From contig NZ_KE159568.1 of assembly GCF_000403845.2 (NCBI RefSeq), forward strand, positions 1,185,400-1,249,399: 64,000 bases of DNA, written 5' to 3'. Each line of letters begins with the position of its first letter. Position 1 is the stretch's first letter. The notes beneath the pieces were generated by a model. It was not told the DNA's origin and did not search any database. It worked only from the letters and a program-made list of their open reading frames with translations. Shown piece after piece: positions 32,992-35,653 of the stretch. Origin of the DNA: Eubacterium sp. 14-2. GTDB taxonomy: Bacteria; Bacillota; Clostridia; Lachnospirales; Lachnospiraceae. The position numbers and the translations under genes are program-made.

Positions 32992-33069
32992 ATCTGGAGA
33001 TGTTACGGTGTCCTGGCAGTTGTTGGCTTCCGTCATAAATTACAGGGCCGTCATCTTATTTACCATTCT

Positions 33070-33158
33070 GGAGGAGTACCCAAGCGGCTGAAGGGTCTGG
33101 CTTCGAACACCAGCAGGTCGGTAGTCCCGGCGCGGGGGTTCAAATCCCCCCTCCTCCG
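33070..33158 (+). tRNA. tRNA-Ser (anticodon CGA)
   Basis: Acceptor GGAGGAG pairs with CTCCTCC; T-arm GGGGG-TTCAAAT-CCCCC; a long variable arm typical of class II tRNAs; discriminator G. The anticodon loop TTCGAAC gives CGA, reading UCG serine codons. The last base pair of the anticodon stem is a C-A mismatch as drawn. CCA is not encoded. Serine tRNA genes commonly lie near tadA and dnaX in Firmicutes, as here. Confidence 0.93.
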
Positions 33159-33162
33159 TTAC

Positions 33163-33192
33163 AAAAGCGCTGAGTTTTCAGCGCTTTTTTTA
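33163..33192 (+). terminator. Intrinsic terminator after tRNA-Ser
   Basis: AAAGCGCTGA/TCAGCGCTTT with a 4-base loop and a run of T, starting 5 bases after the tRNA 3' end. Confidence 0.92.
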
Positions 33193-33249
33193 TCTTACAG
33201 GAAAGACCTTGTCACGCTAACGCGTGAAAGTATCTTTCCTGTAAGATAA
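33190..33249. repeat. Type-A interspersed hairpin element
   Basis: Arms TTATCTTACAGGAAAGA/TCTTTCCTGTAAGATAA enclose an inner TCACGC-N4-GCGTGA-like hairpin. This is the cleanest copy of the family also present at 13864-13924, 6426-6470 and 41491-41540. Confidence 0.85.
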
Positions 33250-33495
33250 AATAATATGCGCAGGGCCTGCCCACTTTGTTCTTTCTGCATCAGATTCATG
33301 AAAAATCCTGTCATACTCACCATTTTATAAAAGAACAGAAAAAAATCTCTGCAGCCGGCGGAACCCTGTACCCTTCTGGTACTTTTCCTTTCCAGTCACA
33401 AAGATTTCTTTCGGAGCTAAAGTTTTATTGAGATCTTTTCCCCTTTTCACACCCCTTGTGATTATTCTACAGGCGTTTCACCGGAATCACCATAC
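33250..33495. other. Intergenic stretch without recognised gene
   Basis: Between the type-A repeat and a long imperfect hairpin. It contains a small GTACC-N5-GGTAC-TTTT hairpin near 33369-33387. No coding frame with a ribosome site was seen. Confidence 0.4.
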
Positions 33496-33604
33496 ACTTT
33501 GAGGAAAATTTCAGGTTTCTGTCGGAAATTTATAGATTTTTCCGAAATTTTCCTTTTATTATCTCCGAAAAAATAGGAAATATTTCCTAATTTTTCCTCA
33601 AAGT
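33496..33604. other. 109-base A+T-rich nested inverted repeat upstream of the peptide gene
   Basis: Outer arms ACTTTGAGGAAAA/TTTTCCTCAAAGT are perfect over 13 bases. Inside are TCGGAAA/TTTCCGA and a 12-base palindrome GGAAATATTTCC. It ends 27 bases before the -10 box of the peptide promoter. It could be a small RNA, a MITE-like remnant or a protein-binding region. Confidence 0.55.
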
Positions 33605-33628
33605 TCATGGCTGCCCGTGGGTTATCGT

Positions 33629-33636
33629 GTTATACT
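33629..33636 (+). promoter_or_regulatory. Extended -10 promoter of the signal-peptide gene
   Basis: The sequence TGTTATACT has an extended -10 (TG-N-TATACT). No good -35 is present, which is typical of extended -10 promoters and of promoters that need an activator. Predicted start near 33643. Confidence 0.5.
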
Positions 33637-33651
33637 TCCCACATCATATCA

Positions 33652-33672
33652 GTGTTTACATCAGGTAAACAC
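33652..33672. promoter_or_regulatory. Palindromic operator before the peptide gene
   Basis: Perfect inverted repeat GTGTTTAC-N5-GTAAACAC just downstream of the predicted transcription start. A third half-site GTAAACA follows at 33679-33685. Position and symmetry fit a binding site for a dimeric HTH regulator; the HTH-TPR protein encoded opposite is the obvious candidate, but binding is not shown. Confidence 0.6.
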
Positions 33673-33705
33673 ATGGCTGTAAACATTCACAAAGGAGGTT
33701 TTTTT

Positions 33706-33849
33706 ATGAAAAAAACAATCATAAGCACCTGTTTATCTTTTTGTCTTTTGTCTGCGCTTTTTCCATCGCTGACCTCTTTCAAATCAGGTCCGAAGCTGCC
33801 TGGAATCAGTACCCTGTCATATTTCGACGATCTCATGGAGTATTATTGA
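33706..33849 (+). CDS. Small secreted peptide, candidate signalling propeptide
   Basis: 47 codons with a very strong ribosome site (AAAGGAGG, 7 bases before ATG). The product is a Sec-type signal peptide (MKKTIISTCLSFCLLSALF), then a short mature part with FKSGPKLPG and ending YFDDLMEYY. Size and layout fit PapR/Phr-type pheromone precursors of RRNPP systems. The 3' end overlaps the convergent HTH-TPR regulator gene by 33 bases. The upstream region holds an extended -10 promoter and a perfect palindrome. No homologue was recognised; the pheromone role is inferred from context. Confidence 0.6.
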   Translation: MKKTIISTCLSFCLLSALFPSLTSFKSGPKLPGISTLSYFDDLMEYY

Positions 33850-34752
33850 TTCCATCTGCCAGTTTTCTTTCAGAAAATTCTGCAGCTTTTCACACTGTGT
33901 CCTGTCTCCCAGGGCATAAAAAGCACAGAAGCCTTTTATAAATGACTCTTTTGCCTGTTCTCTTTCCTGCAGTTCCAGCAGGGCGAGCCCTCTGTTAATG
34001 AGGAATTTGGGGAACAGGCAAAAACGGTTATTTTCTTTCTCCATGGCAATTCCCTGATTACAGAGTTCCACCACATGAGAATATTTCTTTTCATCCAGCA
34101 GCAGATTGGAAAGATTAAACAGAATCATTGGATATTTCTGTGCCTTTTCTCTCCGGTCTATGATATGCGTATCCATATACTGTTTCAGCCCGAACAGTAT
34201 TTCTATGGCTTTGTCCCGCCTGCCCAGTTTCCGGTATGCTCTTGCAATATTGATAAGAATTACCATTTCATTATAGGTCAGCAGCCCTTTCAGCGCAGTT
34301 TCCACTTCAATTCCATTGGGTTTTGTCATGCGCAGAGTTTCCTCCAGTTCTTCAATAATCCCTGCCCAGTCTTCATTTTTCCGCTGTTTCAATATAATTC
34401 TGGTAAAACGGCAATACTGGGAATTCAGAATATCTCCCTTTGCTATGGTGCGCTCAAATCTGTCAGTCAGCTCTTCCAGTCCCTCATAGTCATAATTGGT
34501 AATTTTACGGACAATCCGGCTGCATATTTCCACCTGCTGCATTTCCTCTCTGCTGGAATACTGCAGAAACGTCTCTCCGCAGCCCAAACGCTGTGTCAGT
34601 GCTTCCACGGTTTTCCGATTTGGCAGCCGCGTCCCGTTTTCAATCTTGGACAGATTTCCCACAGAACAGATTCCAAAACATAATTCTTCCTGCGAATATC
34701 CACGTTCCACCCTCATATCGTGGATATAATTTCCGATTTCATATACCGCCAT
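33817..34752 (-). CDS. HTH-TPR transcriptional regulator (RRNPP-like)
   Basis: 311 residues. An XRE-type helix-turn-helix at about 7-62 (IGNYIHDMRVERGYSQEELCFGI, LSKIENGTRLPNRKTVEALTQRL) is followed by about 240 residues of TPR-like helical repeats (EVETALKGLLTYNEMVILINIARAYRKLGRRDKAIEIL and similar). PlcR, Rgg and related proteins share this architecture and bind exported-then-imported peptides through the TPR part. The convergent 47-codon secreted peptide gene at its 3' end is a candidate ligand. Other HTH-TPR proteins respond to unrelated cues, so this remains a hypothesis. Confidence 0.75.
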   Translation of the reverse strand: MAVYEIGNYIHDMRVERGYSQEELCFGICSVGNLSKIENGTRLPNRKTVEALTQRLGCGETFLQYSSREEMQQVEICSRIVRKITNYDYEGLEELTDRFERTIAKGDILNSQYCRFTRIILKQRKNEDWAGIIEELEETLRMTKPNGIEVETALKGLLTYNEMVILINIARAYRKLGRRDKAIEILFGLKQYMDTHIIDRREKAQKYPMILFNLSNLLLDEKKYSHVVELCNQGIAMEKENNRFCLFPKFLINRGLALLELQEREQAKESFIKGFCAFYALGDRTQCEKLQNFLKENWQMESIILHEIVEI

Positions 34753-35008: not shown

Positions 35009-35653
35009 ATGAAAAAATATTTTTCCATTTTGTTTTTTGCCATGTGTTTATGCGCCACTTTCCTGAGCGGCTGCGGAGAACCGAAAAAAAATGCCGCTGA
35101 CTCTGTCAGGGCAATTTATGATCTGTATATTCTGGGGGATACCCAGGGAATCACCTCTCTGGGAATGACGGAGGAAGATATTAATACTGCCCGCCAGACT
35201 TATGACGATTCTCTGAAAGAAACGCTCCGGGCCAATTTTTCTGCCAGCGGGCAGGAAATAGAAGAAGCGGTACTGGATGAACTGTGCAATGCCCGCAAAA
35301 CCGCCCTGGCCAAAATGAAGGCTTCTGCTGAAATTATTTCCGAAGCGGACGGAAAGGCAACCGTTGTAATTCACACCACTTATTTTGATGAATCCAGCCT
35401 GGATGCGGACGCTTTTTTCAGCGCCAAGGAAGACGCCCGGCATAAAAGTTTTGCTTCCACAGAAGAACAGAACAAATTTCTGATGGACACCTATACGCAG
35501 AATTTAATCACAGCTTACCATGAAGTGACGCCCTCAGAAAAAACCACTGATATTTCTGTGGACTGTGTTATCCAGAACAACACCTGGGTTCCTGCCAATA
35601 TGTCCTCTTTCGGTTCCGACCTGGCGCTGGCCATTACCGGACAGACAGAATAG
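35009..35653 (+). CDS. Lipoprotein, DUF5105-like
   Basis: 214 residues. A lipoprotein signal with lipobox LSGC (Cys22) leads to a mature helical/beta domain with ADSVRAIYDLYILGDTQGI at its start and repeated pairing of YDDSLKETL with EEVLDELCNARKTAL-like helices. This resembles the DUF5105 lipoproteins of Firmicutes, whose role is unknown. Preceded by AGGAAAGGA and a sigma-A promoter. The next plus-strand gene begins about 90 bases on. Confidence 0.75.
   Translation: MKKYFSILFFAMCLCATFLSGCGEPKKNAADSVRAIYDLYILGDTQGITSLGMTEEDINTARQTYDDSLKETLRANFSASGQEIEEAVLDELCNARKTALAKMKASAEIISEADGKATVVIHTTYFDESSLDADAFFSAKEDARHKSFASTEEQNKFLMDTYTQNLITAYHEVTPSEKTTDISVDCVIQNNTWVPANMSSFGSDLALAITGQTE

Follow-up and report, generated by a model that had tools for sequence, protein, structure and literature searches.

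A putative PlcR-type peptide/receptor pair in Lachnospiraceae with leadered, leaderless and peptide-less relatives

Introduction

Lachnospiraceae are common gut bacteria, yet no paper joining RRNPP regulators with them was found in the literature searched. The available main text of three surveys (PMC10075063, PMC12700828, and PMC9765709; supplements aside) contained no word beginning with "Lachno", and the wider literature held nothing on the regulator family described here among the matches listed. In the window, a stretch of 64,000 nucleotides from Eubacterium sp. 14-2, a short gene runs convergently into the 3' end of an HTH-TPR regulator gene. Do the two form a peptide/receptor pair, and does the peptide signal between cells or act inside the cell that makes it? 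The family offers a compact and testable system whose signal code, presumed operator, and promoter geometry can be read from sequence. Sister species carry leadered, leaderless, broken, or peptide-less versions of it, and these sit at one place in the chromosome. Because all versions share that place, the passage from a signal to a private switch or to an eavesdropping receptor is directly testable.

Gene layout in the window

The features of the locus, in a genome of 4 contigs and 3.99 Mb, are as follows.

33490-33511: inverted repeat, distal arm CCATACACTTTGAGGAAAATTT, operator-like and conserved
33589-33610: inverted repeat, proximal arm AATTTTTCCTCAAAGTTCATGG, ending 20 nt ahead of the -10
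33628-33636, plus strand: extended -10 of the peptide gene, TGTTATACT, without a partner -35
33652-33672: palindrome GTGTTTAC-ATCAG-GTAAACAC in the presumed 5' UTR, with an extra TGTAAACAT downstream
33693-33698, plus strand: Shine-Dalgarno (SD) sequence AGGAGG ahead of the peptide gene
33706-33849, plus strand: peptide gene, 47 aa, MKKTIISTCLSFCLLSALFPSLTSFKSGPKLPGISTLSYFDDLMEYY, with Lys-Lys and a hydrophobic leader, a spacer, and a C-terminal tail
33820-33849, plus strand: conserved tail YFDDLMEYY and stop, the presumed mature signal or part of it
33817-34752, minus strand: PlcR-type HTH-TPR regulator gene (HTH_3 and RNPP_C), 311 aa
35009-35653, plus strand: DUF5105-type lipoprotein gene, divergent neighbour of the regulator gene

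An earlier note on this DNA had described a 47-residue ORF behind a strong ribosome site, an HTH-TPR gene converging on it with a 33-base overlap, an extended -10, and a perfect palindrome with an extra half-site. These parts were recovered at the positions listed, the overlap of 33 nt spanning 33817-33849 and the palindrome, as a sequence, having exact arms.

The peptide/regulator arrangement in the window is more than a chance one. The window holds 44 ORFs of 150 aa or more that do not overlap one another. All were examined for a convergent small ORF near their 3' end, and one of them, the 311-aa regulator gene, had a convergent hydrophobic ORF of 35-60 aa behind a 6/6 SD match (1/44); one other gene had a convergent 14-aa ORF with a 6/6 SD match. 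A separate inverted repeat with 33-nt arms (85% complementary) was seen at 33185-33254, just after tRNA-Ser (33069-33159).

Family of the regulator

Pfam models HTH_3, TPR_2, and RNPP_C were found in the 311-aa protein. RNPP_C scored 26.7 bits, just above its cutoff of 26.5, and all but one of the 18 aligned regulator proteins carry it at E<=1e-3. When a profile of 18 sequences was searched against solved structures, PlcR (2qfc) was the best match, covering both domains (profile positions 1-286, E 8.4e-14) and far ahead of the PrgX and ComR chains; with the single sequence, the similarity was limited to the HTH (E 8.5e-4). NCBIfam matches of the window regulator at E<=1 included no Rgg model. 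The RRNPP signature, as given in the available part of PMC10075063, is an N-terminal HTH with C-terminal TPR repeats in 250-500 aa, and the 311-aa regulator has this build. Judged from these matches, the regulator is a member of the RRNPP family and of the PlcR type. The PlcR profile match, RNPP_C, and the linked small ORF with its kept frame lend support to the RRNPP-type peptide/receptor pair proposed earlier.

Relatives of the locus

Regulator matches at E<=1e-30 were present in 26 of the 29 genomes of the genus set, own genome included. Clade A, that of the window, comprises 14 loci with 49-100% identity across the matched region; for clade B, 22 loci were read, at about 31-38% identity. 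The close relatives include Lachnospiraceae bacteria A2 (locus L049) and 3-1 (L040, leaderless), Petralouisia muris (L046, peptide-less), and MAGs.

Six of the 14 clade-A loci had a leadered convergent peptide, with the tail YFDDL[MI]EYY in L001, L007, and L008 and the tails FYLAIEGQ, FYIAVEGD, and FHLAIEDQ in L017, L018, and L019, respectively. Three had an 11-codon ORF, MAYFDDLIEYY (L009-L011), one was frame-broken (L012), and four had lost the peptide (L013-L016). The expected link of a small ORF to orthologous regulators thus stood in most clade-A loci and failed in the four without a peptide and the frame-broken one. In clade B, the peptide was leadered in 3/22 loci (L020, L022, and L030), leaderless in 8/22 (L021, L024-L027, L033, L082, and L083), and frame-broken in 1/22 (L035), and 10/22 were without a tail-bearing ORF, some with another short ORF. 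Leaderless ORFs carrying the same tail, mostly of 11-23 residues, therefore occur in some species of both clades; in clade B they measure 18-23 aa, the outlier being L021, whose 48 aa include no hydrophobic stretch. Across both clades, the peptide was lost and the regulator kept in 14 of 36 same-genus loci and the frame was broken in 2 of 36, where a "lost" locus may hold a tail-less short ORF behind an SD-like stretch that was left out of the counts (52 aa in L002, 8 aa in L023, 56 aa in L029, 14 aa in L031 and in L034, and 9 aa in L085/L086). In L019 (genome G004; also L087), a transposase-like ORF of 538 aa interrupts the clade-A regulator, and the peptide ORF stays open.

Outside the genus, a clear convergent leadered peptide was found in 4 of 13 loci read (L051, L056, L060, and L061); L054 and L066 were similar in look, and L053 was unclear. 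The own genome holds a paralogue (L004, 27% identity) that forms a second complete pair with the whole layout repeated. Close relatives are rare, since a family search of 397 genomes gave 8 genomes (own included) at E<=1e-40. A wider profile gave 30 loci in 15 of 150 genomes at E<=1e-15, of which 17 were read, four being repeats of earlier loci (L099, L101, L102, and L121, the last being L004 again). A convergent hydrophobic small ORF was present in L103, L104, L117, and L119 and an 18-aa ORF in L105 (outside the genus); the other 11 of the 17 had no small ORF of such kind. A phage origin was rejected, as no relative was found among viral contigs.

Coding evidence for the peptide gene

Among five distinct clade-A tail sequences of the form YFDDL[MI]EYY, Met/Ile was the sole residue change, and all seven variable sense columns of the tail DNA fell on codon position 3 (hypergeometric probability 4e-5 if columns are free, the sequences being related). 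Measured from the tail, the regulator stop falls at a different place in each of L001, L009/L010, and L011, so the conservation of the tail is not enforced by the regulator frame. For the peptide gene, pN was below pS in seven of eight locus pairs compared: 0.07 vs 0.31 (L001/L007), 0.05 vs 0.51 (L020/L022), 0.05 vs 0.31 (L024/L025), 0 vs 0.07 (L033/L083), and 0 vs 0.58-0.97 (L009/L010, L009/L011, and L010/L011). The exception was L026/L027, with both at 0.09.

Clade-B peptides are convergent as well and end in FFLGDVEET[YF]. Searching 29 genomes for the degenerate pattern FF-L-[GDE]-[DN]-VEET gave 8 matches in 8 genomes, all directly 3' of a clade-B regulator and on the opposite strand, against 0 for the reversed control. 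The whole window peptide had one match in its own genome, the locus itself. The 47-residue peptide gene is, on this comparative evidence, a real coding gene, because change in the tail is confined to third positions, the clade-B motif is so placed, and the window scan singled out one gene in 44. The reading frame is conserved in orthologues, as the earlier note had anticipated. All loci counted with a peptide have an SD and a start; in L009-L011, the SD-like AAGGGGG lies 12-13 nt from the ATG, which is longer than usual and makes translation less sure there.

The leader of the window peptide consists of KK and a hydrophobic stretch with a best 15-aa mean of 2.23, by hydropathy only and with no clear cleavage site. 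Propeptides of RRNPP systems are exported by Sec or PptAB, and the window leader is a putative Sec-type one.

Inverted repeat, palindrome, and promoter

The earlier note had taken the palindrome at 33652-33672 for the operator and asked whether it accompanies orthologous regulators. Its exact 8-bp arms and extra half-site speak for such a role. However, the two closest orthologues (L007 and L008) have it in degraded form; their regulators are 90% identical with nearly the same HTH, and a 6-bp RNA stem is all that remains of the palindrome there. In the further orthologues aligned, it was not seen. It lies downstream of the -10 within the presumed 5' UTR; it has a single exact copy in its own genome, and a total of 2 places were found with <=2 mismatches, equal to the reversed-pattern control. 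As it is not conserved, the palindrome was rejected as the operator, a role that we consider highly improbable. A 2-mismatch version occurs in L037.

The conserved element is a different one, the inverted repeat CATxxACTTTGAGGAAAA ... TTTTCCTCAAAGTxxATG upstream of the promoter. The same repeat occurs in clade A with regulators down to ~50% identity; its distal arm is present in all 14 clade-A loci read, and the peptide-less L013, L015, and L016 have kept the distal arm alone. In the own genome, exact matches to the arm are the two arms only, and 4 other places have 3 mismatches. As the repeat has no other copy there at <3 mismatches, an output beyond the peptide gene appears to be missing. 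The arms of L004 are likewise single in this genome, and the window and L004 regulators each seem to have one strong predicted site, at the promoter of their own peptide gene. A mobile repeat was rejected, the arms having 1+1 copies in the own genome at <=1 mismatch. Control of the DUF5105 lipoprotein by the repeat was also rejected, as no site with <3 mismatches exists elsewhere in the own genome and no such repeat was seen by eye in the aligned regulator-lipoprotein intergenic region. The lipoprotein gene at 35009-35653 has a counterpart next to and divergent from the regulator gene in 10 of the 12 clade-A loci examined, and no operator-like repeat was seen in between.

Across the 29 genomes, exact off-locus copies of the 18-base arm pattern were two single arms (G015:C3:195947 and G023:C12:35795), and one-mismatch places elsewhere, which may include further targets, hardly outnumbered those of the reversed-pattern control. 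The single arm at G023:C12:35795-35812 lies away from the locus in a genome with a clade-A regulator and is a possible further target.

Between the end of the proximal arm and the -10 hexamer, the distance is exactly 20 nt in 23 of the 26 loci measured, the paralogue L004 with its different repeat among them; arms and -10 hexamers were picked by eye per locus, and some loci are near-copies. The exceptions are 19 nt in L026, 21 nt in L034 (where the typed motif is one base shorter), and 23 nt in L051. The spacing table covers 27 of the 41 loci of the regulator tree described below, 26 with a -10. It leaves out L013-L016, where the promoter is gone, and L020, L021, L029, L030, L032, L035, L056, L061, L084, and L086, the omissions being mostly due to an unclear proximal arm or -10. 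A two-hexamer scan found no plus-strand promoter with a -35 at the -10 of the peptide gene. From the fixed distance and the missing -35, we infer an activator touching RNA polymerase. Helical phasing of the two arms was rejected, since the gaps between them vary widely and show no rule by eye.

Beyond clade A, the scan turned up repeats that differ in sequence and share the same kind of outer ends (CCAT/ATGG or CATATG) in L002, L004, L023, L028, L029, L033, L034, L035, L051, and L060; L031 lacks only the outermost bases. Another kind of repeat ranked top in L020, L021, L022, L024-L027, L030, L032, L056, and L061, and an imperfect repeat is visible by eye in several of the loci whose top-ranked repeat differed. 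The SD region of clade-B loci can also pair with sequence over the -10 and, on the other strand, leads into a T-run (as in L022, L024, and L026; by eye), so it may double as the terminator of the regulator gene. In L023, L028, and L031, the repeat, the -10, and an SD-like sequence survive without a tail-bearing ORF; the kept sequences are perhaps a regulator terminator and an antisense promoter.

Proposed mechanism and alternative readings

We consider it likely that the locus is a PlcR-like RRNPP peptide/receptor pair with positive feedback. The small gene would yield a propeptide, of which the C-terminal part (approximately YFDDLMEYY) would be released by processing, in the window species probably after Sec export and re-import. 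The released tail would bind in the TPR groove of the convergent regulator, which as a dimer or a dimer of dimers would occupy the long inverted repeat and would activate, rather than repress, the peptide gene from its extended -10 without a recognisable -35, closing the loop. A brake might come in addition from convergent transcription that reads into the regulator gene from its 3' end. In leaderless species, the loop could be closed inside the cell, or the peptide could leave by another route, and peptide-less receptors could be eavesdroppers.

The leaderless forms invite another reading, in which the tail is an internal co-regulator, activating or inhibiting in the producing cell, the leader being unneeded for signalling. 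The same tails without a leader in two clades, from the 11-aa MAYFDDLIEYY to the 18-23 aa forms and the 48-aa L021, fit this reading, as do the four changes that the leaderless loci need in the regulator tree. However, the deeper peptide-bearing branches of that tree are leadered (the 18-aa ORF of L105 not being on it), peptides of the leaderless LCP class act between cells according to the available part of PMC10518010, and the distant SD-like stretch leaves translation in L009-L011 less sure. An internal co-regulator instead of a pheromone is therefore rather unlikely.

Two other readings concern the nature of the small gene itself. Its transcript could matter as an RNA antisense to the regulator 3' end, with the ORF incidental; the convergent overlap and the repeat, -10, and SD-like sequence kept in L023 and L031 without a tail-bearing ORF agree with this. 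An RNA function is nevertheless very unlikely given the third-position-only change in the clade-A tail, the confinement of the clade-B tail motif to regulator-adjacent sites across 29 genomes, and the SD and start in every locus counted with a peptide. A small hydrophobic toxin, with the HTH protein as antitoxin or repressor, would suit a hydrophobic 47-aa product adjoining an HTH gene, but some relatives lack the hydrophobic part and keep the acidic/aromatic tail, and the regulator is of the PlcR type; we regard a toxin as extremely improbable.

Proposed leader loss and peptide loss at one chromosomal place

The genes pfk and dnaX lie on one side of the locus in 8 of 12 clade-A loci examined and the DUF5105 lipoprotein on the other side in 10 of 12, some absences being ends of the available DNA; from this synteny, the changes occurred at one chromosomal place. 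In the peptide-less L013, L015, and L016 (with longer flanks in L045, L046, and L044), pfk and dnaX remain on their usual side of the locus, so these three look like in-place deletions; the peptide-less L014/L043 is at a contig end.

In a tree of 41 chosen regulator loci (midpoint root; long branches meet; L105 not placed), the labels leadered, leaderless, broken, and lost needed 10 changes vs 20.6 when shuffled (0/200 as low), with 4 changes for leaderless and 6 for lost. Twelve loci with no recognisable peptide or an unclear layout were left out (L003, L005, L006, L050, L052, L053, L054, L055, L062, L063, L065, and L066), and the HTH-only matches L057 and L058 are unread. As the deeper peptide-bearing branches are leadered (L004, L051, L056, L060, and L061), the simplest reading is a loss of the leader, at least once per clade, with the direction inferred from the tree. 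A tail kept where the leader is sometimes missing suggests that a secreted signal may have become an internal switch. We tentatively extend this to a scenario that is possible but somewhat doubtful: in PlcR-type quorum sensing of Lachnospiraceae, the leader would have been shed in place at least once per clade with the tail, operator, and promoter geometry kept, turning secreted signals into cell-autonomous co-activators, and elsewhere the peptide would have been lost and an orphan or eavesdropping receptor retained. The literature searched yielded no account of a leader being lost within a single orthologue group.

Comparison with known systems

In the Bacillus cereus group, the PapR propeptide gene adjoins plcR in the same direction, and the PlcR box is a short operator. 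The present pair resembles PlcR/PapR in a regulator similar over both the HTH and TPR domains and in the small propeptide gene adjoining it. It differs in that the peptide gene is convergent and overlapping, whereas PapR runs in the direction of PlcR, and in that the presumed operator has arms of ~20 bp instead of a short box.

The earlier note had called the convergent overlap unusual. This did not hold, as convergent, overlapping peptide and receptor genes are already known from group III Rgg/SHP of streptococci according to the available part of PMC13361665, and the 33-nt overlap here is a likeness to them. The receptor of the window, however, matches no Rgg model at NCBIfam E<=1, and its acidic/aromatic tail differs from the SHPs, which the same part of that source describes as rich in hydrophobic residues. 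Leaderless peptides are likewise known elsewhere. In RopB/LCP, as described in the available part of PMC10518010, the LCP genes are divergent from ropB; L009-L011 and others similarly encode little beyond the presumed signal. The window peptide is leadered and so falls outside the leaderless class, in which L009-L011 and the eight clade-B forms lie, leadered and leaderless forms thus occurring within one orthologue group. The peptide gene here is convergent instead of divergent, and the receptor is PlcR-type, with PlcR as its best solved match and no Rgg model. The Qsr/Qss systems of solventogenic Clostridium (PMC7376267 and PMC7206700) are likewise RRNPP systems in Clostridia. Eavesdropping receptors have already been proposed for other RRNPPA systems in PMC9765709, whose available part describes a search for propeptide ORFs that had to be 20 to 120 aa long and to bear an export signal; the shortest peptides here would fail that filter.

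Tandem and possibly fused regulators

The own genome also holds, at C1:225467-227292 (L004/L005), two PlcR-like regulators in tandem. The second has a convergent leadered peptide ending in STYSYFDLEVQK, and its own inverted repeat stops 20 nt short of the -10. At L003 1501-3303 (own genome C2:1508794-1510590), a frame of ~600 aa contains two HTH_3 stretches and two successive regulator matches, and its predicted product resembles a covalent dimer of PlcR-like modules. Other genera also show long open frames, of 595-667 aa, at their matches, and some of these (L103 and L119) are accompanied by a small hydrophobic ORF that is convergent.
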